NCBI GenBank assembly: GCA_002102555.1 | Contig: MCFL01000016.1 | Span: 434,001-498,000, forward strand | Direction of reading: 5' to 3' | Length of the DNA: 64,000 nt | DNA from: Catenaria anguillulae PL171 | Taxonomy: Eukaryota > Blastocladiomycota > Blastocladiomycetes > Blastocladiales > Catenariaceae | Shown: positions 11,718 to 52,372 of the stretch, one piece after another | Numbering within the stretch: position 1 is the stretch's first letter | How the letters are laid out: the number at the start of each line of letters is the position of its first letter | Program-made: the position numbers and the translations under genes | The notes under the pieces: generated by a model | What the model was told of the DNA's origin: nothing | Database searches by the model: none | What the model saw: the letters and a program-made list of their open reading frames with translations, nothing else

Positions 11718-14700
11718 ATGCAACGTTTCGCAATGTCAACATTTACATGCTGCCATGCTACCCTCGTCCTCGTTCTCATCCTGGCGGTTGCACCCTTGCT
11801 CGCCGTCACCCAATTACAGCAACCGATACGCGTCCTGTACGCAGATGGCCGACCCGCTGCACAAAAAGACGCATTCCAGGCCTACGTCAACCAATGGTCA
11901 AACATATCTGGAATACCGGTCCTGGTCCAGTTTCCAAATGTGACGGGGTTCTTGACATCAACTGGTGAGTCTTCTCCTTTCATTTTTTTTGGGTGGTGGT
12001 TGCGATTGAAGCGCGTATTGACATGATTATGACGTGGTGATGAGTAGAATACAGCCGCTTGCTCACTCTGATGGGAGCACAGAAGTCCAACGCTTGGGAT
12101 TTGTACGCTTATGTAGAACAATCGTCATCCATTCTGGAAACGTGACTGACACCTGTTTTTGCACTCAATCAGATTCTTTGTCGATGGTGCGCATTCCATT
12201 TCATTGGCGTACGTGACCAAGGCTGGGCCTGACCATGCTCGTGCTTCCATGATCCAGTCATCTGGCCACCACGATTCGTCGACATGCTGCGTCCTTTGGA
12301 TGACTTGCTTTCACCGGGTTACATTGATCCATTCGACCCTGAGGTGTCTGGTGCCGCACGTGTCCAGGGAAAGCTGTATGCTGTCCCATTTCATTCGCCG
12401 CGCGTTGCGCTGTATTCGCGCACGGATTTGTTGGCCAGGTTTAATTACACGCGACCGCCGCGAACAGTACGTATACTCATTTGCCACTTGTCTTTGGGTA
12501 AAACTGACTGGATGGTGGTTTGCTATGAACAGTGGGCGGAACTCGAGCAAATCGCCAACCATATCGTTCCCGAAGTCCGCAAATCTAACCCAAATTTCTT
12601 TGGATACATTGGACAAATGCGGCCGCACGAGGGCCTGACATGCAACGTTGTTGAATGGCTGCGGTCGTTTGACGCAGGCACCCACATTGAACCCGACGGA
12701 TCCATTTCCACCACGGACCCAGTCAAACGCCAGCGCATCCAAGACGCCATGTCCCTGTTTCGCAGGTGGATGGCCGACGGACTCATTTCGCCGTTTGCCC
12801 TCCAGGCAGTCGAGGCGTCGTCGGTCGCGTTTTGGCAACGTGGCGATGCGCTGTTTATGCGCAATTGGGTCGCGACCGCGTGGTTGACGGTGACTGGCGG
12901 AACGGCGGCCATGTCGCCGTTGCCCGGTGTCACCGAAGGGTTGCAGGGGGCGTCGACCAATGGCGCACATTTCTTTGGCATGAATCGAAATGTTGCGAAT
13001 GCGAGTCGTTCAGCGAGGGTCTTGGAGTTTTTGGCGTCTGAGCAGACGAGTCGGTGGTGGACAGAACGGATCGGGTTGCTGCCAGCGAGGACCAGGTTAA
13101 TCAACGGTAGTTATGCTCCGACACTGGGATATGTGTACAGTAGCATCGACATTCAGTCCGCTGACCATGTGTTTCCCACCAGATGCAACTATTGGACAGT
13201 TGACTGGGACATCTGGTTTGACCGAGTTTAGGGTACCAAAGTTCTTCACGACATCTTTTTTGTGTGTGCACGCTATCGTTGACAGATTCATGGTGACTTC
13301 CCCATAGCCCGTGTCTCGCCCATCCGTCGCCACCGGCGCAAACTACCTTGCCGCCTCCACCCTCATTTTTAACACCTGGCACAACATGTTGGCCGGACGC
13401 GTGTCCATCACAGAAGCGCTCGACATTCTCACATACGACCTGGCTGACATGTTGAAAATCAATGTCCTTGGCCCGCCCATGACCGTTCCCTGGACAAGCG
13501 CGTTTGGCATCATCACCATTGTGCTCGTGTCGCTCGCAAATCTGGTTGTGCTTCTCACCATGTGGCCGCTCGTGAAGCCAACGGGAGCTCAGTCGCGCGA
13601 GCTGCGTCGCGCTTCACCACGGCTGATTGTGACCATGCTCGTTGGACTCATGTTTATGAGCAACTGGCCAATCACATTTCTGGGCGACAGGACGGTCGCA
13701 GCGTGTATGATGCAACCCGTGATTCCAGGGATTGCTTGGACAATCATCTTGTCGGTGATGGCCGTCCAGGACCTACAAGTGTACCTCATCACATCAAGCC
13801 CACTCCGCAGAGTCGCCATGGATGTGAATCGGCGGCTGCGCATCTTCCTGGCCGTGTCTGCGCTTTTTGAAGCAGGCATGCTAGCGACCGTGCTGGCAGT
13901 CAATCAACCGCGACCCACCGTGTTTCGCGTGGGGCGGCTGTTCCAATACGCTGGCTGCGACCTGGGCCTGCCGCGCCAACTGCTTGTGCTACCGCTGCTC
14001 ATGCCCGCGCTCCTAATTGCCCTCAACGTATGGCTCTCGTTCCGAACCGCCATGGTCGACCAGCTGAAAACCATCAATCGCGTCCCAACGCTTCGTGTCG
14101 TCTACCTCGTACTTGTCTTGTGCTTGGTGGTAGCCATTCCGCTTCTCGTTGACAGCATTGACCCAAACACTCGCGTCACCATCATTTCAGGCGCCATGGT
14201 CGCACAAAGTGTCGGTGTGACAAGGCTGTACGTTGTTCAGCGCATCAGCCCAGACCAAAACAGTTCGACACTTGCGTGGATGGGGCAGACACGTATAGAC
14301 AACGATGGAGAATCGGAGCAGCCGTCGGGCGATTGGGATGTGTCCACGGCAGGCAACACGACCAGGATGAGGTCAGCGACTAACAGTGTGGGAACAACGG
14401 CCGTCATTGTCAAGAGCGATTTGTTTTCGTGCCGAGCCGCCGTTTCTGAGATCAAGCTCGAGTTGAAGCCGTGTGTGCCTTGTATGTGCACGCTGGTGAG
14501 GGAGAAGGGAAGACTGGTGTTTGTTGAGGTATATGGGTTTCATTTTACTCTAGCCGGGTCCACATTTACCTATCGTACCTTTTCGGCTGACCGGACCTCA
14601 CTCTCGTCTTGATTTCATACCTTTAGAAGGGACTGGCGAAGCGAACGAGGCGAGTCTTGCATCTGGCTGGGCGGCTTCAATCGGTCGACTTTGTCCGAGC

Positions 14701-14866
14701 GGCCGGACAAGCTCCTGGGGCACGAAATGCAAAGAGTCTTCGGTTGAGGTTCAACGGCGGAGAAGTCGCTGAGCTGGCTGCGAGTGGAGCCGAGACAACA
14801 AAGCTTGTCGAGTATTGGCAAGAGTTGCTGCTGGAGTTTGTGCAAAAGGGCGGGGAAGACGAGTGA
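11718..14866 (+). CDS. Solute-binding ectodomain / class C-like 7TM receptor, copy 1
   Basis: Exons 11718-11964, 12048-12102, 12173-12186, 12258-12466, 12533-13106, 13183-13232, 13308-14528 and 14627-14866 (869 aa), all in frame. After a signal peptide, residues about 35-450 resemble family-1 ABC solute-binding proteins: LYAVPFHSPRVALY, then GYIGQMRPHEGLTCN, then LFMRNW, and the closing RPS-x3-TG...LAG hinge helix. Residues about 450-690 hold seven hydrophobic helices of class C type, with a Cys at the start of TM3 (ACMMQPVIPG) paired to one in loop 2 (QYAGC), and TM7 ending GVTRLYVVQ. The cytoplasmic tail ends with the family's C-terminal module. A bacterial-type sugar or solute sensor wired to G proteins is the inferred role. 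This copy lacks the Cys pair found in the 50-nt exon of copies 3 and 5-7. An ATG at 11733 is an alternative start. Confidence 0.87.
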
Positions 14867-15097
14867 ATGAATGGGGAGAGAAGAGATACAGTTGCCGTAT
14901 GCGGTATATAAGGTTTGTTTTGTGCAATGTATTCATAGTACATATTAATACATACATGACATATTCGCAATGTTAAACGTCCTAGGTTCGGTTCACAAAG
15001 CAAGCGAGGAGCAAGCGTTGGATCAAAATCAAAAGTGTTCGATGCCAGCTGTTCGAATTCGGTGCCGTTCCTCGGGCAATGCAAATATAATGGCAGC

Positions 15098-18000
15098 ATG
15101 AACATGATTCCTATCACACTATCTGCAATGAAATTGTTTCAATTGACACTGGTCGCCCATCAGGCTGTCTTCTTGGTGTTGTCATGGACCACCTTTTTCC
15201 CATCATCCTTGTGTCAGCGGGCAACCGCGTCAACCACTGCACCCGTGAGAATATTTTTCAATGACGGACGCTTGACCGCGCTCAAGAGCGACATGCAAGA
15301 CTATATGAATCAGTGGTCCTCGGCCTCAGGGATATCTGTGTCTGCTATCTTTCCCAACGTGGTTCGTATTCAAGTGATATTCTGACACAAACGATGCTTT
15401 GGTTCTGACCTGAGGCGGACGTTAGTCAGGATTCTTGTCCACCACAGGTAGGTTCCCTTTACCGCTCGCAGGCAGTGGCTCCTCAATACTGATCTGGCCC
15501 CGTGTCTTGCGGCACCCTGTGGGGAAATAGATTACAGTCGCTTTATGAATTTGATTCAGGAGCAGAAGCGAGCATACTTTGACATGTATATTTCCAAGTT
15601 TATGTCCGTCCACTCGGATCCGTAAACATCAAACCTAATGTTCCATCCCCGTCCTCAGTTTGTATGTAGACGGTACGCCAAAGATCCAAGTATCTGAGTC
15701 GATGGGGCTCTTGTCCGCCGCCAAGTTTGCTAACATGGTAAAACAGTCATCTGGCCCTCGCTGTTTTCGCAAAACTTGCTGCCATTGAATGAGCTCTTGT
15801 CGCCTGGATTGCTTTATCAATTCAACCAAGAAATCATTGCGGCAATGCAAGTCAATAACAGGCAGTGCGTTACGCCTAAAACATGACAAGCACTGTTTCA
15901 GTTCCCCCACTTTACTCACCCTGTCCCGAGCGTCTCAACAATGCACAGACTCGGCCTGCCACTTTTGATTACACGACCGGCGCTCTACTATCGCTACGAT
16001 CTTTTGCAAAAGTATAACTTTAGCTCACCGCCTCAAACCGTGCGCATTCGCTTTTCTTGGATCCGTTTATGCCTCACGCTCACTGCAGTGACCATGCAGT
16101 GGGACGAAGCAGAGCACATGATCCGAACCATTGTGCCCGCTGAGCGAGCTGCCGGCAAACCCAATTTCCATGGATACATTGGTCAATTGTCGCCGTACGA
16201 GGGGCTCACATGCAATGTATTGGAATGGATCGCCAGCTATGGTGGTGGGACATTTGTTGAGCCTGACGCCACGGTTTCCGCAATGAATCCTGTCAAGCGG
16301 GACGCCATGCATGCAGCATTGAGTCGGCTGGCCCGTTGGATAAAGGACGGGCTCGTGCATCCGAGTGCCTTGTCGTCGGCTGAAACGTCATCGGCTGCCG
16401 TCTGGATGAGAGGAGATGTACTCTTTATGAGGTGTGTTTATTGCCCGCATTTTCTTCATGCTGAGAGGCCGAGACACTGAATTGACCCACATAAACTATG
16501 TAGGAACTGGATTGGAAGTACTTGGCTCACAATTGCTAATGGGGTCGGTGCATTGGCTCCACTCCCCGGCGCAACGGCAGAGCTCTCTGGCGCCTCAACG
16601 AATGGAGCTGGGTATTTTGGAGTCAACCGATACACTGGGAATGCAGCGGCCGCAACCCAGGTCCTTGAGTTTCTCACGTCAGATCAAACCGCCAGATGGT
16701 TGGCTCGTCGACTCGGGTTCTTGCCCGCTCGAACAGCTTTGATTCAAGGTGCATTATTGCCAGTGGTTGACGAGGGAAAGAAAAAACCGAAGCTGACGCC
16801 GAACTGGTTAATGCACTTGCAGACGCAGAGATTGGCAGATTGACCATGGCCGGTAACGTTTCACGCCCACGGGTACGATGGGAAAGCTCTTGATCCACTT
16901 GTCACAGGACTTGACGTCTGTTGCATTTGTAGATTGTGAGCCGGCCGTCAGGTGTTGCTGGAGCAAAGTACCTTCGATTCTCTGAGCTTGTGTATCAAAC
17001 GACACACCAAGTCCTTAGCGGGGATCGCACCGTCGAATCCGCAATGGACGTTTGGACCTACGATGTCGCAGACCTCTTGTCCATCGATGTTCTCGGCCCA
17101 CCCAAACTGGTCAGTGTCACCGATCCAGCAGGGATTGCGGCGGTTGTGATGGTTGCAATAGCGGATGCGTTTCTGTTGATCGCGGCTTGGCCGTTGTTGC
17201 GTGGGAAGTGGTCTCGACAATTGCGACGAGGATCTCCTCGTCTCATGCTGGCGCTATTGAGTGACCTTGCGCTTGTCAATTGCTGGCCCATTGCGTTTCT
17301 CGGGCAATCCGATATTGCATGCAGTGTCCAGCCGTTGATCCCAGCATTTGGATGGACCTTGATTCTCGCCACGGTCGCGGTGCAGGACTTACAAGTCTTT
17401 ATGATCACGGCAAGTCCCCTGCGAATCATGGCCATGAATGTCAATCGGCAACTACGGATTTTTCTCGCCAGCTGTGTCACGATTCAAGGTCTCTTGTCGG
17501 TTGTGTACGTGGCCATCAACAATCCCAAGGTGGCCGTGTATCGGACGAGCAAAACTGAGCGTTATGTGGGCTGTGGGTTTGCCGGTGGACCAGAGACATT
17601 GGGTCTGCTCCTCTTGGTACCAGTCTTGCTGGTTGTTGGCAATGTGGTGCTGTCAGTCAGATCCAGCGTACTCAACGCATCCTCGGCCACGCGCATTCAT
17701 CGAATCCCAACACTACGAGTCATTTATCTCATGCTCGTTCTCTCGTTGATTGCTGTACGTAATTCCCATCGATTATCCCAAATGCAGTATTTCTTGCCCA
17801 GGTTCACAATATTTCCGTCGCGACATCGTCCAGCTGCTGTCCGTGTTTCTCACATCCATCGCAAAACCCGTCCGCGTGTTGATTCTGAGCGGCGTCATTA
17901 TTGCTCAATCCTTGGGCGTGACTCGACTGTACGTGATCCCTCGAATTGCGGGCAAGGACGAGTCCATGTCGACCCTAGCTTGGATGGGGGTTACACAAGT

Positions 18001-18630
18001 TGGAGAGTTGGACACGTCCATCGCGCCATCTGCCGCAACCAGCGAGAAGCGATTCAGTAGTGCAGGAAAGGTGACAAGTGGTAGCGACCGTGGTGGGAAC
18101 TCAACAAGTATGGGCAGCCTGTCGATGTTCTTGGAGGGCGAATTTGCGTTCCGAATGGCCCGAACCGAGCTGATGTTGGAGTTGACACCCAGCATACAAC
18201 GACGGTTGAGGCTGCTCAAAGATGTCGGGGTCCTTGTTGTATTCGAGGTACGTCGAGCTCACACTGTGCCATTTCATTTCACCAGAGCTGGCGCACTAAG
18301 ATGCGTGCATGTCCGCACCCGTGCATGCAATCGTATACATAGCTCAATGGTGGCAAACGGTCAAGGCATGTGGTCAATCTGGGTGGGGCTCTCGCCCGAG
18401 TTGACTTGACTGCGATTGCTCATGTCCGAAACGGCGGCGGGCAGCTGTCACAATCAACGCAGCAGCAGCAAGGCCTCGCTATCCACATGCACCATGGATG
18501 GGTTCTCGAGCTGTGTGCAACCGGTGCGGGAATCGCAAAACTAATGGGACCTTGGCGTACGGCCCTGGAAGCTTGTTGTGCATCTCAACTGGGTGGGGAC
18601 GAGCTGGCGAGAGGGACGTCGGTCGATTGA
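15098..18630 (+). CDS. Solute-binding ectodomain / class C-like 7TM receptor, copy 2
   Basis: Twelve exons: 15098-15361, 15426-15447, 15531-15585, 15659-15672, 15747-15864, 15949-16039, 16100-16431, 16504-16748, 16823-16857, 16933-17754, 17834-18247, 18343-18630 (899 aa), no frame break. Architecture as copy 1. Recognisable ectodomain blocks are VIWPSLFSQNLLPL, ALYYRYDLLQKYNFSSPP, GYIGQLSPYEGLTCN and VLFMRNW. TM3 and loop-2 cysteines are present (ACSVQPLIPA, RYVGCG). It has the most introns of the seven, including one that splits the FMR/NW motif and is seen in no other copy. The small exon before the SRPS hinge is 35 nt instead of 50 and lacks the Cys pair. Its donor (GTTTCA) is weak, so that junction is the least certain. 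An alternative start ATG is at 15128. It lies 231 nt after copy 1 in the same orientation. Confidence 0.85.
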
Positions 18631-19074
18631 ATTAATGCAGTGAACAGGTCAAAGGCAAGGCCTTGATAAGGTTGATCGTTCGTACCCGTGTACTGCACCG
18701 CGGCCATGGTTCCGTATAACCCAGTGTCTCGCGAGCTGCCCGATGTACTGGATTCACTACGTCACACTGTATGGCCAATCGTGAAGCTCCGTTCGATCCG
18801 AATGAAAATTCTCGAACTTTCAACGCGAGCCGCTTTGGAGCGCCACGCGATGTGCCACGCTGCCCACGCACTTACTACGCAACACTCGGAAGCCAAGGAA
18901 GCAACGCTATCTTCTTCTCCTGGGCATTTCCCGCCCTCAGCCCCGAGCTCGTCCCAGCGAGAGACAGCCAAGAAGTCTATAAGAGCCGATGACCGCCACA
19001 GCCTGCCATCGCCATGCCATGATGACCGCAAATCTTTCGCCCATGCCCGCTGAGCACCCATTCAAACAAGCACA
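18631..19074. other. Intergenic, receptor copy 2 to oxygenase
   Basis: About 440 nt, with overlapping short frames on both strands and no family resemblance. It probably carries the promoter of the oxygenase gene starting at 19075. Confidence 0.45.
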
Positions 19075-20508
19075 ATGATGACCGACATGCCGCCCGTGGG
19101 CCTTCCGACCGATAGCCAAAAAATGTTGGGCATATCCTCTTCCGCCGCCGCCGCCGCCGTCGCCGCGGATGCGTCCCTTCTTCATGTCCCGACCTTCACC
19201 GACATTCCCATCCTGAACGTATCCGCGCTGATTGACGCCAAGGCAAGCGACGATTCCGCTGCCTATGCCAAGGCCATTGCTGACCTGACCATGGCCATGT
19301 ATGATGCCTCCAAGTCTGTCGGCTTCTTTCTCGTTAGCGGTCACGGAATCGACACGGCACTAATTGATGACATGTTTGCCATGGCGCGCCGCTTCTTTGC
19401 TTTGCCCGTGGACGTGAAAAAGACCACGTCCGTCAGCCACAATCGCGGGTACATGGCGCTGGGCGAGGAGAACCTCAATTCAGATGCGCAGTACGATGGG
19501 GATATCAAGGAGGCACTGGACATTGGCCCAGAAAAGGAGGACGCACCTTTACCAGACGATGCCTCCGAGTTGGATCGCCTGCTCGCATATCGGTTGCGGC
19601 AGCGCAACAGGTGGCTTTCGGATGATGTGTTGCCAGGATTCAAGCAAGTGTCAATGAAGTACTATGACAAGGTCAACGAGCTCGCAGAAATTGTGTTGGA
19701 GGTGCTTGCGTCCGCCATGGGCCAGGTATGCATCGCTTTTCGTTTTATGGTCTACTACTGACAAACAACACCATTCTCACCCATGATTGATCTCTTGTAC
19801 AAACAGTCAACCGCCTTCTTTTCCGATCGCGTCAAGGTGCCTGGAACCATGGGCCAGCTCCGCATGGTCCGATACCCGGCTGCCCCAGGCATGCAATCCT
19901 CCCGGCTTTCGTGCGGCGCCCACTCGGACTATGGCTGCATCACACTCCTCGCCGCCGACACACCTGGCCTTCAAATCTATCTCTCGCCCGAAGTCGTCAA
20001 GCGCCACTTTCCCGCACGCGCGTGCTCTGACCTGCAAGCACACCACGAATCCATCAAGTATGCCTCGGGTGGGCAGCCTGGCGGATCCTGGGCTTGGGTT
20101 CCCGTCGTTCCCGGCACATTCATTGTCAACTTGGGCGACATGATCAGCCGCTGGACCAATCGCACATTCAAGTCGACTTTGCACCGCGTTGTGCATGTGG
20201 ATACCGACCTCGGGGATCGCATTTCGTTGCCATTCTTTGTCGATTGCGACTTTGATACCGAGATCAGAGTGTTGCCCGCATTTCTTCCCGGGTCGGGTAA
20301 GCTCTCGGACCCAAAGGAGCATGTGCTGCATTTTCCGAAACCGATTACCATGGGTCAACACTTGGCACTCATGTTTAGCAGCACGTTTCCCGAGCTGCCT
20401 GCTGTCAGGAAAGAGACGCAACGGTTGACGCCGAGCCCCGTCGTGCATGTGACGTTGAGAGACGAGGATGGGCAAGAGCACGAGTTGGCTGAGAGTGCAG
20501 GCGCGTGA
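19075..20508 (+). CDS. 2-oxoglutarate/Fe(II)-dependent oxygenase (IPNS-like)
   Basis: Exons 19075-19725 and 19807-20508, joined in phase 0 across an 81-nt intron (GTATGC...ACAG), give 450 aa. The N-terminal region carries the isopenicillin-N-synthase-family pattern IPILNVSALI and SVGFFLVSGHGID. The catalytic jelly roll shows the iron triad: His and Asp in GAHSDYG, and the distal His in TLHRVV. The co-substrate arginine is in DRISLPFF (R-x-S). The family oxidises small molecules using 2-oxoglutarate and O2; the substrate cannot be told from sequence. An insertion of about 30 residues after LYLSPEVV-type sequence, containing a possible Cys/His cluster, is unlike compact members. The gene sits between receptor copies 2 (+) and 3 (-). 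An alternative start is the next ATG at 19078. Confidence 0.93.
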
Positions 20509-20678
20509 GGTTGTTGGGTGTTGTGCCCATGGCAATGGTGTTTTGCCGAGTCCTGTTTATTGTGTTCGGTCCAACGTATCCCTGGTTTATCATGTGTGTG
20601 CTACATACCCGTATCTCGTTCCCTGTTCTCATTCCGTCAGCACACACTGATGCATTTTGCCATCTTGTTCGCAATCGG

Positions 20679-24120: not shown

Positions 24121-24201
24121 AGTTTCCTTTTACGAGGAGCTGTAATTTCATTCCGTTATTTACAAGTCGGATTGCACACGCGGGTGCTCCGCGCACAACG
24201 C

Positions 24202-24660: not shown

Positions 24661-24861
24661 GTAGTGCTGAGGGAGGAAAGAACTGCCTATGGGGGAACTG
24701 CCGTATGGCTCCATGTGCAGCTTTGAATCTGGTTTGGATTCTCGTTCTTTGCCATGTCACAGATTGGAGAGGGGGAAACAGATCACTTTGAGCTTCCGGA
24801 CTGTCCTTGGTGTCAGGTGCAAGGTCGAGCGGGTACCTGATGAGGCAGCTGCACAGACTTC

Positions 24862-37220: not shown

Positions 37221-37261
37221 TTGCATCCACTTCCGACATTGCTGGCTCACCATCCTCGTCC

Positions 37262-38749: not shown

Positions 38750-40516
38750 TCAGCCATCACTTGCCTCATCCGAGCTCACAGGCACACCCGCCGCGGCCGC
38801 CCCGGCAACCAACACGTCTGCCGGCGCAGACACTGGCCTGCCCCTTGCACCGAGCTGCGCCTGCGCCTGCCCCTGGCCCAAGGGTTGCGGAGGCACCATG
38901 GGTGGCGCAGCACTCACGCCCATCTGAAAGGGTGCAACCAACCGCCTCAACTCCCGAACCCAATGACACATATCTGCCCTCGACTCGGACGCAAACTGAT
39001 ACGTCTTACCCGCCGCAACCACGTGAAAACACGTCGTTGCCTCGTGGCCCATGACGACCGACACGTCGCTTGCCACTGGTGGCGCATCGGGATGATGTTC
39101 ACCTACGCCGCCGCCTCCGCCCTCTGCGCTATTGGCAGGCGGATGCGACCCGATGCGCTTCTCAAGGCCTTTACCCATGGGCGCAGACAAGACATCCAGG
39201 ACATTTTGCAGAGCAATCACGCGCAACGGCGTGTACTCACGCTCGTCCTTGTACACGAGCACCGGTCGCCGCGCACACACACCACCTGCGCTTCCAGTGC
39301 TTGCCCGCAAGTGGCCGCGACACAGACAGCAGGGCGCCTAGGTTGGCTCGCTCGTACCGCCATAGCCATCCTGCGCGGTGGGTAAACTGTCGGGTCAGGT
39401 CAGATGTAACTGAAGGCGGGAGGTTGGTGGCCGAGGCGAGCAGTGGATGGGCGAGGTGGCGCGCCGGGGTCCCACAGCGACGGGCACATCGTGTGTGGGC
39501 GAATCCGACGTGTCGTGCGGATCCCAATAATGACCCCGCGGTGGCCGGGGTGGCGGGCGAGTGGGTGTGGATTGCGCAGCGAGACCCGTTGGGTCCGAGT
39601 TTTGGCGCGTGGCAACGAGCAAGAGCGGTGGGCCAGAAAGTCGGCGTTGGGTGTTGTGGTCGCCCGTCGAGTACGAGCGCGGGTGATGCGCAGGAGAAGA
39701 GGGGAGCGGAACTTGTGCAGGGTCAATGATGGCTTGCACGGATGTGGGCGACACGGCCAGCGGTGCGTCTGGAAGGATTTGATGAGGTGGCGGTGAGGAG
39801 CCGTTTGCTGCGGCTGCAGCCGCAGCGGCCGAAGCAGCCTGCACGGCCGACAAATCTGTCAAGGACAAGACACTTGGTGCGCTTGGCGGCAAACTCCGAA
39901 CCACATCGTCAAATGCCATCAACCACGCCTCCAATTCGACCCTGGCCGCGGCATCCAAGTAGAGCGTCTTTTTACGAGTGACAATGGCCATGACGTGCTC
40001 GTGTTTGTTCGACATGGCAATGGCCGTAACGGAATGAATGTCGGCCGTGTTGATGATGCCCATGGGCGAGTACTCTTGCTCGTCCTTGTAAAACGCGAGC
40101 TGCCCGCCGCGCAGCACAAACCACCGGCGCTTCCAACGAGAGCGCTGCTTGTCGCCACGCTTTTCGAGCCATCCAGAGCGGACGAGGCGTTCGCGGGCGA
40201 GCTCGCGACGCCATTGGTCAGAGGCGGAGGAGAGGGCAGTCACCATTTGCAAGCCGCTGCCATTGGTCGTTGCTGGCGTGGGAGCGGAGGCTTGGTCCGG
40301 GTTTGGATCGGCGGCAGCGTCCGAGTCGTCTGCGTAGTAGTACTCTTCGTGCTCTTGGTCCTGGTCGTCGTACTCTGCATCGTCCTCAAAGTCGTCGTGA
40401 TCGTGTTGGGTAGCTTGGGACTGGTCAAGGACTGGAGCAGCGACCGGCGGTGCCATGAGCGGAACGCCGCCTGGGCCTGCTGTGACTGGATTGGGAGCGG
40501 CAGCCGCGGAAGCCAT
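38750..40516 (-). CDS. Protein with two pleckstrin-homology domains
   Basis: Minus strand. The first block (40516 to about 39420) starts in a good context. It has an acidic Asp/Glu/Tyr patch (residues 40-66) and a clear PH domain (about 112-210): SGWLEKRGDKQRSRWKRRWF, LAFYKDEQEYSPMGIINTAD, and the C-terminal helix with LEAWLMAFDD. A long Pro/Ser-rich linker follows. An intron near 39390-39420 (CTGAC branch, CGACAG acceptor) leads to a second PH domain: AGWLWRYERA, KHWKRRWCV, VLVYKDEREYTPLRVIAL, and final helix CHWVRELRRL, ending at 38750. Inside it the frame changes at a GTGTGTGTG run near 39275-39290, so the strand after KRRWCV is out of register; an indel is likely. The donor of the intron was not fixed. 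PH pairs usually target phosphoinositide membranes. The N-terminal WLEKRG and C-terminal Trp are intact in domain 1. Confidence 0.78.
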
Positions 40517-40700
40517 GATGGTGCAATTACAAGTGCAGGTCGAGTTTGGCGTGTGGCGTTTGGTTTAGGTTGGTGCGAGGACCAGGCCTGTGCACAGACA
40601 CGAAACATACACATACAAACGCAACGGTTCCGGTTAGTCCTTTGGATGCGGGTCGGTTGGGCACACCGCGGCAGAGCTCGGGCAGGATTAGGGAATCGAA

Positions 40701-40730
40701 TCCAATCCAATCCAATCCAATCCAATCCAA
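40701..40730 (+). repeat. (TCCAA)6 microsatellite
   Basis: Six perfect 5-nt units read directly from the sequence, preceded by a degenerate GAATCGAA. The tract lies in the 5' region upstream of the minus-strand PH gene. Confidence 0.95.
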
Positions 40731-40891
40731 CACTTGGGCGGGCGCGAGAGTGTGTGAGAGTGTGTGTCACGGCAACAGAAGAGTGTGCATATGTACAATT
40801 GCCGAGTCAAATCAGAAGCGCTCAAGCCTGACTCGGAGTATGTACTTTCGGCTCGGTATTGCGACGATGGCGCCGATGGTGGATCAGGCGC

Positions 40892-41236
40892 TCAAGTAGC
40901 AGCGGGCACCAACGGACGACTCGGAGGCAGCCTGGTCAGCTGTGATTCGATATAGGATTTGGGATTGGTCGGAGCCTCAAGGGTGGCTTTCCGTGCACTG
41001 TCGCCCGAGTCCGTCGTCAAGGGCTGTGCTGAATTGGATGCGTGTTGAAGGTCGGGGACGTGGAGTGGCGGGTTGCTCAGGCTCAAGTACGGGCGGTAGT
41101 ACGCAATATCATGGACATGGACAGAATGCATCGAGACTGGTCTGGTTGAAAGGAGGCGGCCGCTGTCACGGTGGTGTGCGGTCTGAGTGGATTCCAGAGA
41201 GGAAACGGTCGCGGTTAGGGTTAGGGTGGCACTCAT
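40892..41236 (-). CDS. Hypothetical short protein
   Basis: A 114-codon minus-strand frame with ATG and stop. The second half has a believable composition and GC-ending codons (HDIAYYRPYLSLSNPPLHVP), which is why it is listed. Its start overlaps the TTAGGG motif, read as Thr-Leu repeats. No family is recognised, and chance or a terminal exon of an unseen gene are both possible. Confidence 0.25.
   Translation of the reverse strand: MSATLTLTATVSSLESTQTAHHRDSGRLLSTRPVSMHSVHVHDIAYYRPYLSLSNPPLHVPDLQHASNSAQPLTTDSGDSARKATLEAPTNPKSYIESQLTRLPPSRPLVPAAT
41213..41226 (+). repeat. Doubled telomere-type motif GGTTAGGGTTAGGG
   Basis: Two perfect TTAGGG units in an otherwise internal, gene-rich region. TTAGGG is the telomeric repeat of most fungi; short interstitial copies are also known as protein-binding promoter elements. 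Two units alone cannot separate these. Confidence 0.6.
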
Positions 41237-41973
41237 TCCAGGCTCCTTCCTTCGGGGGCTGTGTGTGTGTGAGAGTTGCTCTGGGACTGGGGCCGCCTCA
41301 GGAAGAAGGAAGACGCAAGGATGTCAACGGCGAGAACAATCGGGTCTGTTTGTGGAAACGCGTTAGAACTGCTCGAAGTGTCTGCGAAGGTTTCGAACCA
41401 AGACGGGGAACCAACTCAAGTCAAATAAGGTGTTATCATGGAAGAAGAAGAAGCAATGGTACTTGGGGACAGACTGGCAGTTGACGAGCGCTTGGGTAGA
41501 TGACTTGGGTTTCTGGTTGTTCGCATGGGTCCAGAATGGATGGGCATGGGAAATGGCATCCTTTGCACCGGCTGTCAGTTTTGTCGATTCGGGACGAAGT
41601 CATGGCACTCACATGATGTTCATACATGTGTCTGCGCCTGGCGGCCCTACTGATACTTCCTCTTTCTCCACAGACACACGTAGGTTGTAGTACGCCGTGG
41701 CTTTCAATGTACGAGCAGCGCGTGATTGTATTGCTCATGTCATCAATCCTTTCATGGCCGCCACTTGCTCACATGTGCACAGGTGGTATCTTCAACAAAA
41801 ACTTGTTATTCGAGACTACCCACTGAATTCTTGATTATCCTGGTGTGGAAAGTGATGACCACCAGTTTATTGTTCGCACTTGACAACCACGCGTATTGCC
41901 CTTTCTCGTCAGTCGATTTCAATACACTTGGACCCCTTGTCATCCGCTTTGCGCAATGATCTCAATTTGACTC

Positions 41974-44900
41974 ATGTTCTCAACTCATCACACAATGACT
42001 CTGCACGCAATCAGCCATGCCGTCTTCTTTGTCATTACACTGGCGGTCGCTCTTCTCACAGCGCGACATGGGGGAGCGTCGTCGCCCCCCATCCGAGCTC
42101 TACATCTCGACGGATACGGAGCACAGTTCGAAGCAGGGTTCAATGCACTTGTCACTGAATGGTCGCGTGCGTCAGGCTTGTCCATCATCCCCGAGTATTC
42201 TAATGTGACTGGTGTGCTTGTCGTGGATGAATACATGGCCATGCTCAATGTCATGAACGCGCAAAGGAACGCTTACTGGGACATGTGTGTATAGTACTTG
42301 TGCATATGCACTCGGCATTGCTTGACCCCCTCTTGCAAACTGAGCACCAGACTCACCCAAACTGATCTCACTCAGCAACGGCGGTCGTGGATTGTACTTG
42401 TAGAGTCTTTATTGACGGTGCTTGACGTGTTTAACGCTCTAACCAGACTTGGCTCGCAATTCTGACCGTGGATACCGAAAAACAGTCATATGGCCGGCGC
42501 TCTATAAGGACCTGCTGCTTCCACTCGACTCGCACCTGTCTCCAGGATTCGTCAACAACTTTGACCCTGGGTTCCTGCCTGCGGCGACCGTCAATGAGCA
42601 ACTGTTTGTCTCGATCGATCCATTGCCCGCCCCGCTTTCATTGGCTTAAACTTGACCGACTGGTGTACTCTAGATATGTACTTCCGTATGCAACGCCCAA
42701 AGTCGCCCTCTTCTATCGAGCCGACCTGCTCGCCAAGTACAACTTTACCTCGCCACCCAGAACAGTGCGTTTTTACTCCCGTTTGGTCATTCCCACTTTA
42801 CATTTCCTCACTCGCTGAGCAACGCACGCAACAGTGGTCTCAACTCGAGCACATGATGCAAATCATTGTACCCGCTGAGCGCTCCACTGGGCGGCCCAAC
42901 TTTTACGGCTACATTGGCCAGTTTGCACCTTACGAAGGTCTCGTGTGCAACATCATGGAACTCTGCGGCACCGCCGGCGGAATGATTGAGCCCGATGGCT
43001 CGCTGTCCATTGTGAAGAACCCCGCCTCGCAAGCACAACTTGTGTCCATCATGTCCATGCTGCGCCGTTGGCTGGAAGCGGGCTGGATGCCGCCTTCCGC
43101 GCTTGCGGCGCGCGAAGATCAAGGCAGGCGCATGTTTCAAGCGGGAGAGGTCTTGTTTATGCGGAACTGGCACATCAAGTCGTGGCTGCCCGTCGATAAT
43201 GGTGGAATCGGCGCAGTTGCGCCGTTGCCTAGTGTAACCGAGGAAACCCGTGGCCTGGCAACAAACGGGGCAACATATCTGGGGGTGAATCGAAACACCA
43301 GGGATGTCAACAGGACCGTTAAGGCGTTGGAGTATCTGCTGAGCGAAGAGCCCATGTGGTGGTGGGCGCGGACCGCGGGACAGTTGCCGACACGGTCAAA
43401 CATGTTGGCGGGTACGTATTCGATGGGCGAGTACCAGAGTCACCACTCCTCGTTGTTTCATTTGCACTCACCGGATCGTATCGGCGGCTGCAGACAGCTC
43501 ACTTTGTCAACTCACGGAAACGTGTACTTTGGCCAACCTTACTGTACGACTCTACCATCACTTAACTCCATTGAAGACTCATCACCAATAGCGCCTCCTG
43601 TCATTTGGGCAGATTGTCTCCCGCCCCTCTGCCGCCACTGGTCCCAAGTACCCTCAGGTCTCGTCGCTCATCTCAACCCATTGGCACGCAATGCTCTCAG
43701 GTCGGACGACCCCCGAGCAAGCTCTCGACGTACTGAAATGGGAACTGGCTGAGCTGTTGGCCATCAACTTGCTCGGCCCACCTACCGCCGTCGAATGGAC
43801 CAGTGCCACAGGCATCATTAGCATTGCCACACACACCATTGCTCATCTGATTGTCCTTGCCGCCGCATTCCCCCTCGTTGCCAATCGCAAAAACTTGTCG
43901 CGCGAGCAGCGGCGTGCATCGCCGCGTCTCATGCTCATGTTGCTCAGTGGTCTGGCGCTCATGAACTCTTGGTCGCTTGCATTTGTCGGGCAACCAAACT
44001 CGGTCGCGTGCGCATTGCGTCCGGCTGTACCAGGGCTCACGTGGACCACCATTCTGGCTGTCATGGCTGTCCAAGATTTGCAAGTGTATCTTATCATGAC
44101 GAGCCCGTTGCGGACGGTTGCCATGAACATTAATAAGCGACTTCGATTGTTTCTCGGTGGATCACTTATTGTACAGACAATTATGACGAGCGTGTACCTC
44201 TCTGTCGCGATTCCAGGACCTACGGTAGTCAAGGTCGGCCGCGAGTTTCAGTTTGCGAGTTGCAGGTTGAGCACGAGACAAAGTGTGCCAGGAGAGAGCG
44301 CTATGCTGACGTTGTACGTCCCAATTCTACTGATGGCGGTCAATGGATGGTTGGCGGCAAGAACCGCATTGGTGAGCAACGTCAAGACAGTGCATCGAGT
44401 TCCAGTGTTGAGAGTCGTGTACTTACTTGTCGTCATGGCTCTCATTTCGGTACGTCCGCCGCATGAGCGTGGAAGAATGGCCTGGGAGTCGCGCGCTCAC
44501 ACTCAAGTCTCACGCACAGGCAACCGCTATCCTTGTCGAGCGCCTGGATCCAACGATTCGCGCACTCATTCTCGCTGGCGTCGCGCTTGCCCAATCTGTT
44601 GGTGTCACACGCTTGTACGTCCTCCCTCGCCTCTCACCGGAAACATCCATGACGACGCTCGCATGGATGGGCGAAACTCTCGCCGGCAGCGATTCCTCGT
44701 CGCCGTTCCCAAAACGGCGCGAATCCAGTATGCGCGGCGGAAGAGGGTTTGGATCACATTCGGTTGCAAGCGGCGGGCCAGGAAGCAGTAAAGATGTTGG
44801 CTTGCTCAGACAGTCAGAGTCGTTTACTTGCCGAGTCGGCAGTTCAGAGCGATTGTTGGAGCTGCAGCCAGCATTACCCTGTCTTATGACATTGTTAAGG

Positions 44901-45332
44901 GAATCGGGCGTGTTGATTCTCACAGAGGTTTGTTTTCTCCTTCTTCTCACTTGGCCTCTGCCTTGGTCGCCTCTCACGCACTTTTTCCTGTTGCGTTTAC
45001 AGAAGCCTTCGGCATCAGGCCAGTCACCACCACGCTTCCGACACGTCTTTGACTTGAATGGGCGGCTCTCCGCCATTTCCAGCTCGCCGCAGCGTCCGGT
45101 TAATGGACAGCTTTCTCAAGCACTCAAGCTGGCTATGCTCAATGGCGTCCGATTGGAGCTTTGCTGCACGAGCCCACTTTCCACGACTGTCAGTCGAACA
45201 GTGTCGGACTGGCAAGAAGAGTTGGGCGAGTTTACAGCAGATTCGTCGGACGTAGGATCAGAGCAAGCACAACAGATGAATGGCAATGCTGCTGTCGTGT
45301 CTGAAATGGGAACGGCGTCAGCTCTTTATTGA
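41974..45332 (+). CDS. Solute-binding ectodomain / class C-like 7TM receptor, copy 5
   Basis: Nine exons: 41974-42284, 42404-42417, 42486-42603, 42674-42764, 42835-43411, 43494-43543, 43613-44449, 44520-44927, 45003-45332 (911 aa), no frame break. It lacks the first two short introns of its relatives, so the N-terminal 104 residues come from one exon. Ectodomain motifs: IRALHLDG, VIWPALYKDLLLPLD, ALFYRADLLAKYNFTSPP, GYIGQFAPYEGLVCN, LFMRNWHIKSWL, and a Cys-pair exon (LCQLTETCTLANLT). The seven helices include LMLMLLSGLALMNSW, ACALRPAVPG...VQDLQVYLI, loop-2 FASC and GVTRLYVLPRL. The C-terminal module reads RFRHVFDLNGRLSAI ... VSDWQEELGEF. First of three tandem copies, 223 nt before copy 6. A start at 41995 is possible. 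Confidence 0.9.
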
Positions 45333-45555
45333 TGTAATACAGTCATTACAATGAGAATCCGGACCGCTGACCGCTTGAACGGCGCATTCAATTTCCGAAT
45401 CACGCGCTGACATGAGTGTTCTGAGTGCTTGTCCGCATCCAGCCAATCCGGACCTGGGATTGGGTAACGCCGTGGCCCGGCAGTAGCTTGCAAAAATGCG
45501 ATCAAAGAACAGATAGATTCGTGACGCAAGTTTCGCGCCGATGTGAAATGACTCT

Positions 45556-48500
45556 ATGCAACAAGACATGGCGAGACAGAGCTTGACACGTATCATATGC
45601 AGGACCGCGATGGCAGCGTTCATGGTTTCTGTCTGGCTCATCCCAGCAGTGGCCACTCAAGTAAACAATGGGACGAATCTTGGTGTGCCGCCCGTGCGGG
45701 TCCTCTACTTGGATGGACACACGGCTCAGTACAAGGCTGCATTTCAAGATTACGTGAACGCATGGTCCAGGACGTCGGGCATCCCGATATCGATTGTGAT
45801 TCCCAAAGTGACTGGTGTGCTTGTCGTTGATGGTATGTGTGCAACTTGAGACGTGTGGACGAACTTTGCGATCAAGATGTGTATTTTAACGGTTTGCTTC
45901 AGAATACATGTCAATGCTGAACGTCATGACAGCGCAAAACAAGTCGTTTTGGGACATGTATGGCTACAGTGTGTGGTTACTTCCACCCAGACTCGATGCT
46001 CACACACATTCCCATTTTTTCCCAGTGTTTACATTGATGGTGCAAACGATCTGTCCTTGCCAATGCGACGCACATTGTAACGAAAACACGACTGACTGAC
46101 TGAATGTCATTCATGTGGCAGTCATCTGGCCTGCGCTCTATACTGGCCTGCTCCTACCGCTCAACAATTTCCTGTCTCCTGGGTTCCTGGAACGTTTCGA
46201 TCCTGGATTCATTCCCGCGGCGACAGTTGACAATCAAATGTGCGTTCGGATACGCCGTTATTGTGCTGACGTTTCTGATTCTTCTGTGCTCCGCTTGCGC
46301 AGATATGTTTTACCAGAGTCGACGCCCAAGGTAGGACTGTATTACAGGGCGGATTTGCTTGCCAAGTACAACTTCACGTCTCCTCCTAAAACAGTACACA
46401 TGACCAAATCTGATTCTATAGCCCCAGATAGAATCAAATGTCTGACGATTGCTTCAACAGTGGACTGAGGTGGAACACATGATCAAAACGATTGTACCAG
46501 CCGAGCGGGCTCGAGGCAACTCAGTGCTCGAGGGTTACATTGGCCAATTGCGCCGTACGAGGGGCTGACGTGCAACATCATGGAACTACTCGGGACAACT
46601 GGAGGCATGATTGAGCCTGACAACTCGCTTTCGGTTGTGGCAAATCCGCTGCCATGTCAGAAACGCTCACAGTCATGTCCATGTTTCAACGCTGGTTCCA
46701 GGAAGGGCTCATTCCAGCCACTGGGATTCAAGCAGGCGAGGAGCAGGGCCGCAAATTGTTTCAATCGGGACAGGTTTTGTTCATGCGCAACTGGCATATC
46801 AAGTCATACTTGGCAGTCGATGGCGGAATCGGAGCAATTGCACCGATGCCTGGGCTCACGGAAACGACGAGAGGAATGGCTACCAATGGCGCCAATTACC
46901 TTGGGGTCAACAGGAACACGATTGACAAGGCAAGGACGGTCAAGGCGCTTGAGTACTTGCTGAGCGAGGATCCACAGTGGTGGTGGGTGAGAAAAGCCGG
47001 TCAGCTTCCAACAAAAACGAGCATGCTCTCTGGTACGCAAGTAAAGATTGACCCAGAGCGGGAGAACCTTGAGACGCTAACTCCTCTCCTGACTTGGAAA
47101 CAGATGGCTCGCTTTGCAACCTGACGGAAACATGTACCCTCGCCAATTTGACTGTGCGCTCACATTCTCGCTCGCCATTTCCAGACGGCAGAACGGACAC
47201 TCATGCACTGCCAGTTTTATTCATCATCGTGAACAACCAGATTGTGTCCCGTCCCTCTGCACAAACAGGTCCAAGTACCCACAAGTCTCGGCCATCTTGT
47301 TCAACAACTGGCACCCATGCTTGCAAATCGAATGACCCCCGAAGAATGCGTTGACAAGATGAAATGGGAACTGGCTGAGCTTCTCAACATAAACCTTCTC
47401 GGGCCGCCGTTGAGTACCCAATGGTTCAGTCCAACAGGAGTCGCTGCCGTTGTGACACATCTCATGTCTCAACTTGCTATAATTGCCGCTGCATATCCCC
47501 TAGTCGCCCAACGCAAGCACTGGTCGCGAGACCAACGCCGCGCATCTCCTCGCTTGATGCTTGTACTCTTGTTTGGCTACTCGTTGCGAACGGGTGGTCG
47601 CTCTCATTTCTCGGTCAGCCATCGACGGAAACCTGCATTTTGCGGGCAATCACGCCAGGATTAGCCTGGGCGATTGTGCTTGCCATCATGGCCGTGCAAG
47701 ATTTGCAAGTATACCTCATCATGACCAGCCCTCTTCGCGCCGTTGCCATGAGCGTCAACAAGCGATTACGTGTCTATCTTGTTGCTTCACAACTGATGCA
47801 GTGGCTCATGACTGGAATGTACCTGTTCCTCGCCCGTCCTGTCCCAACAGTTGTCAAGGTTGGCCGAGTTTACCAATACTTTAGCTGTCAGTTGAGTTCT
47901 CGTCGTAGCGTCCCGTATGAGGCAGAACTGATCACGCTTGTTGTTCCCATTGCGCTCATGGCCGTCAACACTTGGCTGGCAGCTCGAACGGAAGTGGTGG
48001 AAAACATGAAGACTGTGAGCCGAGTCCCAGTGCTTCGAGTGGTGTATTTGATGCTTGTGACGGGTTTGATATCGGTACAGCCTTAAGTCTTCTTGGTGCG
48101 TCTCTGCAATATCCCCAGAAGACGGGGAACTTATTGTGTACATCATTGTAGATTACGGTCACAATGGTTCAGCTCCTGGACCCATCGACCCGCACACTTG
48201 TCATTTCGGCGTCTTGTTTCATCCAAACCATCGGCGTTATTCGGCTCTATGTGCAGCCTCGACTGGCCCCCGACACCTCGACTTCGTCATCCGCTTGGAT
48301 GGGCGAGTCTCAGGCTGTGGTCACAACACTACCAGAGCGACTTGGGTCCAGTATGCGCAAGCCTCAGATGTCAGGTGGATTCGCAACCGACGAGGAAAAC
48401 GACTGTGCAATACTGCGCAAGTCCGAGTTCTTCACATGTCGGACCGCGTCATCGGTCAAGGCGTTGGATGTGAAGCCAAGCTTGCCGTGTTTGGTCATTC

Positions 48501-48917
48501 TGCTGCGGGAATGTGGTACTCTCTTGCTCATCGAGGTTCGTTTGGTAGATTTTGGAAGAATTCTCTTTGAAACTCACCACAGAAGATTAGGCAGCAAATG
48601 GAAAGCGTCGCCGACATGCGATAAAACTTGGCCATGGTCGCTTGCGATCAATCGAGATGATGCCACAAACGTCGGCAAATAGGTTGGTCGTTCAAGGGCT
48701 CAAGTTGCATCTCCAAGGTGGCAAATGCGTTGAAATGACATGCTCGGGCACACTGGCACATGTGGGCAAGACTGTTGTGCAGTGGAGAAGCGAGCTAGCC
48801 GAGTTTGTGTTGGAGCTAGAGGGCCAAGACGAGCCTCAAAGCCAAGGTCGAGCAGATGTTCAGGCAATCGACCAGCTCCAGTCAGTAGGAGCTGTGCAGA
48901 CGCTTGGTAGAATGTAA
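45556..48917 (+). CDS. Solute-binding ectodomain / class C-like 7TM receptor, copy 6 (five single-base breaks)
   Basis: Ten exons: 45556-45832, 45903-45957, 46026-46039, 46122-46239, 46303-46393, 46461-47032, 47104-47153, 47241-48074, 48152-48535, 48591-48917. Splice sites are all good and exon lengths equal those of copies 1, 5 or 7 once five missing bases are allowed: near 46548, 46646, 47272, 47315 and 47577. The large 7TM exon then becomes 837 nt, exactly as in copy 5. Motifs: VRVLYLDG, VIWPALYTGLLLPL, GLYYRADLLAKYNFTSPP, LFMRNWHIKSYL, Cys-pair exon LCNLTETCTLANLT, SWSRDQRRASPRLM-type loop 1, TCILRAITPG, QYFSC, GVIRLYVQPRL. Either the gene is intact under a locally poor assembly or it is a very young pseudogene. 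The C-terminal module is present. Confidence 0.8.
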
Positions 48918-49030
48918 GATAGAGTCTCCATTGAGACCAGTTCCCACAGCTCACTGTCATGTCACGATTGACGTGTTGCGTTGCGAAGTTGCTGTTGTGC
49001 ACTGCGGGCAACCCCACTTAAACCACGGTA

Positions 49031-52000
49031 ATGAACCTAGCTACCGCTATTGTATCAGTCATTGCAATGCACCACATGGCACTTCATTTTCTTCGGGTAT
49101 TGACCGTCATGCGATCATGGTCATTTTCGCTGCCGCTCCGAATCACCTCAGTCTTCCTTGCAAGCCTGATCATGCAAACGACACGGCCAGCAGCAGCCAC
49201 GTCTACATTTTCTCCCGTCCGAATACTGTTTCTGGATGGATACACATCGGCGTATTTATCTGGATACCGAGACTACCTCAAGACATGGACCACAACCACT
49301 GGAATCGAGCTGTCGGCGAATTTCGGGAATGTTTCTGGTGATATGACTGTGAATGGTCCGGAATGAACCCCAGCCTGTCGCAGCCATTACGCACGGCTGA
49401 TAAAGCGTTGATAGCTCAGAGTACAGTCGCGAGCTGGGATTAATGGGCGAGCAACAGCGAGGGTTCTGGGACATGTGCGTGCCGGGGTTTATTGAGGTGA
49501 GCGACGGAAAACTGACAACAGCCTTGTTACCTATCGCTGATGTAGAGTCTTCATCGATGGTATACCTTCAAACCCAAAGATGTGACTGAGTCATGTTTTC
49601 TGATCATAATCGATTGCCTGTCGCATAGTCATTTGGCCAGCTCTTTACATTGATTTTCTCTTGCCTCTCGACAACGAATTGACGTCGGGCTACGTTGACG
49701 GATTCGACCCTGGGTTGATTCCAGCAGCCACTGTCAACAATCGCCTGTACGTCGCCAACCTTTTTCTCTTATCCGCGCGAAGGCCTTGTCCCGAACACTG
49801 ACTGGCATGTACTTGGCATGATGTGGATTAGATATGCCCTTCCCAACGCAGGGAGTAAGGTCGGACTCTACTACCGAAAAGACTTGCTGCTCAAGTACAA
49901 CTTTACTGGCCCGCCCAAGACGGTATGTTTTCTAGTATCTGTCAAGCTGTCTGCTTTGATGTCCAAGCCGCATGAATCTCAACATCATGGCAACAGTGGG
50001 ATGAAGCAGAGCGCATGATTCAAACGATTGTTCCAGCCGAGCGAGCACAAGGCAACTCAAAGCTCCACGGATACATTGGCCAATTCGCACCATACGAGGG
50101 GCTGACTTGCAACATCATGGAGTTTCTCGGCACACCCGGCGGCATGATTGAGCCTGACGGCTCACTCTCCATTGTCAAGGACCCAACTAAAGCGGACGAG
50201 ATAGTTGGCATGATGCGCATGTTTCGAAGATGGATCGAGGTTGGACACATTCCGCAAGTGGGCTTGTTTTCTACCGAGTCGACTGCGGCAAGAATGTTTC
50301 AGTCGGGCGATGTTCTGTTTATGAGGAACTGGCATGTCCGGTCGTGGTTGCCTGTGGATGGCGGCGGCGTTGGAGCTATTGCGCCCATGCCAGGTCGTAC
50401 GGTGCAAGAGTACGGCCGCGCGACCAATGGAGCCATTTACTTGGGCGTTAATCGATTCACAAAGAATCGGACGAGGACAATCAAGGCATTCGAGTATGCA
50501 TTGTCGGAAGGACCTTTGGCTTGGTGGACCGAGAAAGCAGCACAAATCCCGACGCGATCGAGGCAGGCAGCAGGTACAGCACCATTTTCCGTCTTCAACC
50601 CTTTTCTAATCACTGTACTATTCCGAATTGACTCATTCAACAGACCAAAGTGTTTGCCAACTGCTCGAGTCGTGCACACTGACCAACCTGACTGTGCGTG
50701 CGCATCAACTGACTTTTGTTTAGCTATTTCACACATTGACGCTGAGAGTGTCTTCAACAGACCGTTTCCCGTCCATCTGCCGCAACTGGTGCCAAGTATC
50801 CTCGGGTTTCTGCCATCTTGTTCACCAATTGGCACGCCATGCTCGCCGGCAAACTCAGCCCCGAAGCCTGCCTGGACAAGATGAAATGGGAGTTGGCTGA
50901 TTTGCTCAACATCAACTTGCTCGGCGAACCCGCCATTGTCGAATGGAACAGCCCAGCGGGCATTACTGTCGCTGTCCTCGTCATTCTCGCCCAATCCTAC
51001 GTTGTCGTTGCGGGATTTCCGCTCGCGCGAAGCTCAAAGTGGTCGCGTGAGCAGCGCCGTGCATCGCCAAGGTTGATTCTTGCCTTGCTGGGCGGTTTGG
51101 GACTCATGAACTTGTGGCCGTTGGCATATGTGGGTAATCCCACCGTTACGACGTGCATTGCCCGATCCGTGGTGCCTGGAATTGCGTGGACAATTGCGCT
51201 TAGCGTCATGGCTGTCCAGGATTTGCAGGTGTATCTCATCATGACGAGCCCGCTGCGAACAGTGGCCATGGACGTAAATCGGCGGCTGCGCTTGTTTCTT
51301 GTGTCATCGCAATTGGCCCAGATTGCAGTATCGGCCGTATTTGAGGTGTTTGCGGCGCCCACACCGACGATAGTGGCCGTTGGTCGACAGTACCATTATG
51401 CCAGCTGTAGTATCAAGAACGGAAGTGGGATTGAAGCGGTTCTTGCCACTTTATTCATGACGATAGTACTTCTCTTATTCAACACTTGGCTTACTCTGCG
51501 CTTGTCCGTGGCCAACAACTTGAAGACGGTGCATCGCGTTCCCATTGTCCGGGTCATGTACGTGGTTCTGGTCCTCGGGTTCATTGTGGTATGTATGCAT
51601 TAAACGATCTGGTGACAAATGCAATACTAGATGAAGGAATTCGCTTACGACGTTTAGCTTACATGGATCAACAGATTACTGCCGACACTCTTGCGCGACT
51701 TCACCCCTCCACACGCTCGCTCATCATGGCTGCCGTGGCTCTTGTTCATACTGTTGGTGTTTCGCGACTTTACGTGCAACCGCGCATAACGGGCCGTCCT
51801 CCTCGGCATCCCTGGGCTGGATGGGCCAAACTCAAGTCGGAGACGGTGAATCCCGGTCCATGACGACGGTCAGGGCCAGTTTCAGCAGCAAGGACGTATC
51901 CTTGTTCCGACGGTCAGACCTTTTCACATGCCGCGTCGCGACATCGTTGCGAACGCTTGAGTTGAAGCCGAGCGTGGCGTGCTCAGTGGTGCTCATGATG

Positions 52001-52372
52001 GATACAGCGACTTTGATTGCGATTGAGCTCAAGGGGAATGGAAATCAGACCAATGCTGCGATGAGGGCTGGTCGGTTTCGACGGGTAATCAAATTGGAGA
52101 ATGAGCTTGAGTCTGTTGTTGTGACAGAGCAACAAAAGGGACGAGGAAGCGGGGTCGTTGTCCAGTCGATTCGGTTGGCGTTGACGGGAGGGCGGGTCGT
52201 GGAGTTGACATGCTCCCACAGCCTTGAAGCGAAGGTAGCCAAGACGGTTGGCGAGTGGAACGCAGCGTTGAGCGAGCTAGGTCGGGCTCAAGCTGCGGAC
52301 ATGCCACAACAACAGGACCAACGTCGGCATATGCCAGCTGATGCAGACACCGTGACGCAAGCGGATTTTTGA
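49031..52372 (+). CDS. Solute-binding ectodomain / class C-like 7TM receptor, copy 7 (one single-base break)
   Basis: Nine exons: 49031-49355, 49420-49474, 49546-49559, 49629-49746, 49832-49922, 49997-50573, 50644-50693, 50761-51588, 51675-52372 (about 918 aa after one missing base near 51791-51796). Motifs: VRILFLDG, VIWPALYIDFLLPLD, GLYYRKDLLLKYNF, GYIGQFAPYEGLTCN, LFMRNWHVRSWL, Cys-pair exon VCQLLESCTLTNLT, hinge SRPSAATGAKYPRVS, TCIARSVVPG, HYASC, GVSRLYVQPRI. Uniquely, the intron that splits the cytoplasmic tail in the other copies is missing, so the tail is continuous (CRVATSLRTLELKPS ... RFRRVIKLENELESV ... VGEWNAALSEL). This gives the clearest view of the C-terminal module. The first exon also offers an ATG at 49109 directly before the signal-like helix. 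Confidence 0.86.

Follow-up and report, generated by a model that had tools for sequence, protein, structure and literature searches.

Receptors that join a bacterial-type solute-binding protein (SBP) to a class C seven-transmembrane (7TM) domain have been described in Allomyces and in gut fungi. An array of seven loci of this kind (c1 to c7) is described here from Catenaria anguillulae PL171, in a window (the whole stretch of DNA analyzed) of 64,000 nucleotides at C68:434001-498000. Statements on published work refer to the available text of each source. In Allomyces macrogynus, SBP_bac_1 is found on 8 Glutamate-family receptors within a class C expansion of 78 members, with no NCD3G (Krishnan et al. 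2012, PMC3251606). The same study gives most fungal Glutamate-family members a type I ANF domain (PMC3251606). Of the approximately 100 class C G-protein-coupled receptors (GPCRs) of anaerobic gut fungi, almost half have at the N-terminus a type II SBP that resembles the sugar-uptake proteins of prokaryotes (Seppala et al. 2016, PMC5168858). No ligand is reported for the chimeric receptors in the available text of PMC3251606 and PMC5168858. Glutamate-class receptors are enriched in Blastocladiomycota and Chytridiomycota (PMC12842992).

The SBP-7TM domain order is already published for Allomyces and gut fungi, and the preliminary description of this DNA was mistaken in stating that no family with this order had been described. 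Compared by description only, A. macrogynus belongs to the same phylum (Blastocladiomycota) as Catenaria and has the same SBP-then-7tm_3 order; its N-termini, not its tails or pockets, are described in the available text of PMC3251606. The gut-fungal receptors, also compared by description only, share the type II SBP and class C 7TM, and no PH tail is mentioned for them in the available text of PMC5168858. Animal GABA-B and CaSR/mGlu receptors have type I flytraps, whereas those of the array are predicted to be type II. To our knowledge, these animal receptors have no PH tail. As far as the open-licence literature was searched (no search was aimed at pocket remodelling), two features remain new: the arrangement of three domains ending in a PH-fold tail, and the division of the family into a pocket-keeping and a pocket-changing clade.

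The array is read here as a set of Venus-flytrap chemoreceptors with diversified ligands, G-protein signalling, and a membrane- or Gbetagamma-recruiting tail (probability about 0.7).

Domain Architecture of the Array Receptors

Gene models for the seven loci were built with splice-aware alignment and are given in window coordinates. The starts and stops of the preliminary description fit the models of c1 to c7, and it is the source of the outer ends of c3, c5, c6, and c7 past the modelled parts. The loci are as follows, with Pfam E values.

c1, 11718-14866, + strand: 8 exons, open; hydrophobic start and type II SBP 11718-13472; 7TM approximately 13485-14243; PH-like tail 14412-14863; SBP_bac_8 2.5e-10, 7tm_3 8.1e-14
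c2, 15098-18630, + strand: open; SBP to 17097; 7TM approximately 17110-17944; PH-like tail 18131-18600; SBP_bac_8 5.2e-12, 7tm_3 2.8e-11
c3, 24120-20679, - strand: open; SBP 24117-22228; 7TM approximately 22215-21376; PH-like tail 21198-20775; SBP_bac_8 1.1e-13, 7tm_3 1.6e-11; NCBI model BCR44DRAFT_73350 (P0001)
c4, 28623-25400, - strand: frame broken once; 7TM approximately 26883-26032; PH-like tail 25869-25418; NCBI model BCR44DRAFT_1512455 (P0002)
c5, 41974-45332, + strand: open; SBP to 43777; 7TM approximately 43790-44630; PH-like tail 44811-45257; SBP_bac_8 3.6e-15, 7tm_3 1.1e-12; best PDB match 6jb0
c6, 45556-48917, + strand: at least three frame breaks; 7TM approximately 47416-48262; PH-like tail 48419-48830
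c7, 49031-52372, + strand: open; SBP to 50925; 7TM approximately 50938-51785; PH-like tail 51911-52303 in a single exon; SBP_bac_1 7.1e-10, 7tm_3 1.5e-12

The earlier claim of a seven-copy family stands as to the seven loci and their domain order. It needs amending in three respects: five copies (c1, c2, c3, c5, and c7) read open while the frames of c4 and c6 are broken, the family extends to approximately 18 loci genome-wide, and a C-terminal PH-like domain was missed.

SBP_bac_8, SBP_bac_1, and 7tm_3 all score over the Pfam curated cut-off in each of the five open copies, and 7tm_3 reaches 44.0-52.3 bits against a cut-off of 33.5. The scan input was c1 and c5 whole and c2, c3, and c7 without the tail; c2 was also scanned without its signal peptide. 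The c5 ectodomain matches the PDB entries 6jb0 (E 1.2e-48), MalE3 6dtq (5.5e-40), and the trehalose/maltose-binding protein 1eu8 (6.4e-33), with approximately 330-375 residues aligned. These matches bear out the assignment of the ectodomain, in the preliminary description, to the maltose/trehalose-type solute-binding group. The ectodomain is homologous to these bacterial and archaeal importer SBPs, and it differs from them at positions D118 and W287 (see below). The bacterial and archaeal sugar-binding proteins are soluble subunits of ABC importers. Judged by sequence, the array ectodomain is a type II SBP and not the type I (ANF) flytrap of animal class C receptors. This call rests on sequence rather than on the P0001 structure model, since the ectodomain of that model (which is without the first approximately 105 residues) is partly of low confidence.

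The SBP lies at the N-terminal side of 7tm_3 in one gene in the array models, and a signal-peptide-like start was recognized by eye. In c1, an uninterrupted exon (13308-14528) extends from the closing RPSxxTG block of the SBP through all seven helices. In c2, c3, c4, c5, and c7, a single exon extends from the RPSxxTG block through most of the helices. No cysteine-rich domain lies between the SBP and the 7TM, and the direct joint that had been claimed is upheld. The fusion is known here from predicted gene models, and adjacent SBP and 7TM genes united by an annotation or assembly artefact would give the same picture. This is extremely improbable: the exon across the joint is open in six of the seven models, the SBP-then-7TM order recurs at approximately 18 loci, and the NCBI model of c3 also unites both domains.

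The P0001 structure model has a class C 7TM fold, and the 50 rows of the fold search fall mostly on residues 329-609. The cysteine pair that links the third helix (TM3) and the second extracellular loop, C513 and C597 of c5, is invariant in a four-row alignment and present in all seven models, with the helix position assigned by eye. By 7TM domain, fold, and cysteine pair, the array receptors fit the class C (Glutamate) GPCRs, and by analogy they would activate G proteins. A type II flytrap is no bar to class C membership, because fungal type II members are filed as class C in the available text of PMC3251606 and PMC5168858.

The seven-helix proteins might instead be sugar-binding tethers or transporter partners and not G-protein receptors. 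Such roles are discussed for gut-fungal SBPs (Seppala et al., PMC5168858, available text), and G-protein coupling of the array is argued from analogy. This alternative is very unlikely, as the 7TM is class C both by Pfam (five models) and by fold, and the genome holds many G-alpha exons in addition to at least 150 7tm_3 matches at exon level.

Sugar Pocket of the Array and of Other Loci

Pocket positions are numbered by the 6j9w chain. The 6j9w/6jb0 series is presumably the Thermus thermophilus alpha-glycoside-binding protein. Its variant chains differ at R49, D118, and W287, as read from alignments, and because these residues are mutated there, they are taken as putative ligand contacts. Among 69 bacterial sequences (71 minus two dropped for length), D118 is 93% conserved and W287 81%, while position 49 is mostly K (65%). 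In a second set, 25 of 30 bacterial rows (five long-branch rows dropped), the values are 84% for D118 and 72% for W287.

In the intact array copies, position 118 reads P, T, N, P, and S, and position 287 reads H, G, K, T, and I. D118 and W287 are also replaced in c4 and c6 (by eye and from the models). Position 49 is Y in all five intact copies; it is no evidence, as it is mostly K rather than R in bacteria and is changed in the non-array loci too. The W287-equivalent codons are located as follows.

c1, 12968-12970 (+), His
c2, 16610-16612, Gly
c3, 22724-22722, Lys
c4, 27316-27314, His
c5, 43273-43275, Thr
c6, 46894-46896, Asn
c7, 50435-50437, Ile

Eleven SBP loci lie outside the window.

C68, at 122, 126, 140, 144, 214, 406, and 410 kb
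C436, at 148 and 163 kb
C414, at 460 kb
C79, at 54 kb

D118, Q314, W287, and an aromatic residue at 331 are each kept in none of the five intact array copies. In partial models of the 11 non-array loci, D118 is kept in 10 (the other has E), W287 in nine of the 10 aligned (the other has Y), and Q314 and the aromatic residue at 331 in all 11. Out of 82 bacterially conserved columns, six (118, 120, 249, 284, 286, and 314) are retained by the non-array loci but lost from every one of the five intact array copies. The lost columns cluster near 118 and 287 (P 0.002, a post hoc value for a neighbourhood picked with the data already in view). At position 287, no two of the five copies have the same residue, a state reached in only 11 of 362 columns, and by column entropy 118 stands at the 97th and 287 at the 100th percentile of the 362. 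Since pocket residues are lost in five intact copies and differ between copies, the array ligands probably differ from the ancestral alpha-glucosides.

The array could still sense alpha-glucosides (maltose, trehalose) as the bacterial proteins do. The overall similarity to trehalose/maltose-type binding proteins is in favor of this, as is the retention of D65, D70, W73, R125, E174, R246, W248, and R356 in all five copies; the non-array loci likewise retain D65, D70, W73, W248, and R356. With D118, W287, Q314, and the aromatic residue at 331 gone from every intact copy and mostly kept in the non-array loci, this alternative is unlikely. The nutrient (sugar) sensing proposed in the preliminary description is accordingly doubtful for the array where D118 and W287 are concerned, yet D70, W248, and R356 remain.

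The array ectodomain may also have lost ligand binding altogether, leaving the receptors as constitutive or dimer-partner subunits in the manner of GABA-B2. Loss would agree with the joint disappearance of the six conserved positions and with the two broken copies out of seven. It is distinctly unlikely: copies that share only approximately 40-57% identity still have much of the domain conserved, and the variability of columns 118 and 287 ranks with the highest, which points to diversification rather than even drift.

The C-Terminal Tail

The cytoplasmic tail of the array receptors ends in a confidently modelled PH-fold domain, a strand barrel closed by a C-terminal helix. The tail was modelled alone from a contiguous exon of c7 (51839-52303, +). 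Two non-array tails match Pfam PH with E values of 0.0023 and 0.012, both below cut-off. A profile search with the array tail did not recover the non-array tails, and the comparison of array and non-array tail profiles is weak (hhalign probability 48%, E 1.8e-4). A motif reading, the weak Pfam PH match, and the weak profile comparison suggest, short of proof, that the two groups of tails are related. Among the papers listed in searches of the open-licence literature, none dealt with a PH tail on a class C GPCR.

A separate PH-domain gene (39395-40516, -; PF00169, E 2.6e-18) lies between the array halves. It was considered as the source of the tail and rejected, having no similarity to the receptor tails beyond chance.

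Proposed Function

By class C analogy and from the anatomy of the receptors, a small extracellular ligand would close the two SBP lobes. Lobe closure would re-orient the 7TM, probably within a dimer like that of GABA-B, and the re-oriented 7TM would activate a heterotrimeric G protein. The PH-fold tail would recruit membrane phosphoinositide or Gbetagamma. The 11 non-array loci probably still sense alpha-glucoside-like sugars, and the array would be a separate clade with a remodelled pocket in which each copy probably reads a different ligand.

Several points weigh against diversified, signalling chemoreceptors with a recruiting tail. The array retains columns 264, 380, 389, and 397, which the non-array loci have lost. 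The array keeps 48 of the 82 conserved columns (in at least four of five copies) and the non-array loci 41 (in at least 70%), which also indicates that the array is not simply the more decayed clade. Pocket loss could be decay of ligand binding, and some sugar binding may persist, with D70, W248, and R356 kept in every intact copy. For the tail, the best Foldseek E value is 1.5e-3, and a Pfam scan of the array tails gave no match, with no PH over cut-off. The gene models are built from splice-site logic and homology, and those of the non-array loci are partial.

Gene Models

Loci c1 and c2 are on the + strand, c3 and c4 on the - strand, and c5 to c7 on the + strand. Many exon borders and intron phases are common to the copies, and some copies are without introns present in others. 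All seven models contain a 14-base micro-exon.

c1, 12173-12186 (+)
c2, 15659-15672
c3, 23574-23561
c4, 28110-28097
c5, 42404-42417
c6, 46026-46039
c7, 49546-49559

The NCBI model of c3 begins at about the micro-exon, and automatic annotation therefore missed the first approximately 105 residues. In c7, the frame is open from the in-frame ATG at 49031, and the first exon that the model places upstream of this ATG is probably spurious. From tblastn frame changes, c4 has one break in its coding frame, within an ectodomain exon, and c6 has breaks in the ectodomain, at the ectodomain end, and in TM2. These two copies are either pseudogenes or assembly errors.

Downstream of the array, both on the - strand, are an FHA-domain protein (54386-56944; PF00498, 1.4e-12) and a Na+/H+ exchanger (58236-60551; PF00999, 5.1e-56). 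Another 7tm_3 receptor (L121, C68:498001-504426) adjoins the array 2.6 kb beyond the window end; its ectodomain is different and, by eye, possibly type I (ANF-like).

The Family Across the Genome

The 41.07 Mb assembly was searched. The 11 outside loci, found with a non-array ectodomain as query, and the seven in the window give approximately 18, a count in which near-identical second contigs were collapsed by judgement from scores and comparisons. The genome SBP searches gave no match beyond these 18 loci and their second copies. The SBP is followed by a same-strand 7tm_3 match over cut-off in 17 of the 18. At the remaining locus (C68:214 kb), the 7tm_3 match is weaker, and there is a match to the c1 7TM at E 6.1e-11. 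This count covers the 18 loci and only part of the second-contig copies.

The exon-level 7tm_3 matches (150 of 169 candidates scored) are reminiscent of the class C expansion in Allomyces (available text of PMC3251606). G-alpha exon matches over cut-off were found on 13 contigs. A close second copy of c1 lies on C177 (L013, C177:30001-34171), and one of the 3' part of c7 on C326 (L014, C326:1-4000); C326:14391 scores like C68:500607 for 7tm_3. Both contigs look like second-haplotype contigs.

Origin of the Ectodomain

Bacterial and archaeal genomes were scanned once, starting from two motifs of the array, and 71 loci of 21-32% identity were recovered. The top of the ranking is mostly Enterobacterales, with Aromatoleum and Phyllobacterium also near it. 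A tree was constructed from 46 rows, namely 16 receptors and 30 bacterial sequences, the latter made up of 6j9w, six database proteins, and 23 loci selected by hand among the 71. A branch with 100/100 support separates the receptors from the bacterial rows. The array clade has support of 100/99 and the other 11 loci 99/96. This topology fits one capture followed by duplication within the family of this genome, other fungi being outside the tree.

In protein database searches covering the best 8000 candidates each, the only fungal relatives among the matches listed were the NCBI models of c3 and c4, which proves nothing on Allomyces or gut-fungal relatives. One search added six bacterial-type SBPs.

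Significance

Pocket-keeping paralogues and a remodelled array in one genome make it possible to test directly how a nutrient-binding protein of prokaryotes becomes a eukaryotic chemoreceptor. The ectodomains have soluble bacterial proteins as relatives and could perhaps be expressed in E. coli, which makes it look feasible to de-orphan the receptors. A class C receptor with a PH fold of its own would, if true, have its output arranged in a new way. Chemotaxis of zoospores is a natural use of such receptors in a fungus with swimming spores, and zoospores may use the array to find nutrients or hosts.

A broader account is possible, though put forward tentatively. A captured bacterial sugar-binding gene would have seeded a fungal chemoreceptor family, in which one tandem clade shed and diversified its pocket copy by copy into an odorant-receptor-like array for non-ancestral ligands. 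Class C receptors with their own PH effector domain would then unite in one chain the sensing of ligand, the release of G protein, and the recruitment of phosphoinositide or Gbetagamma.
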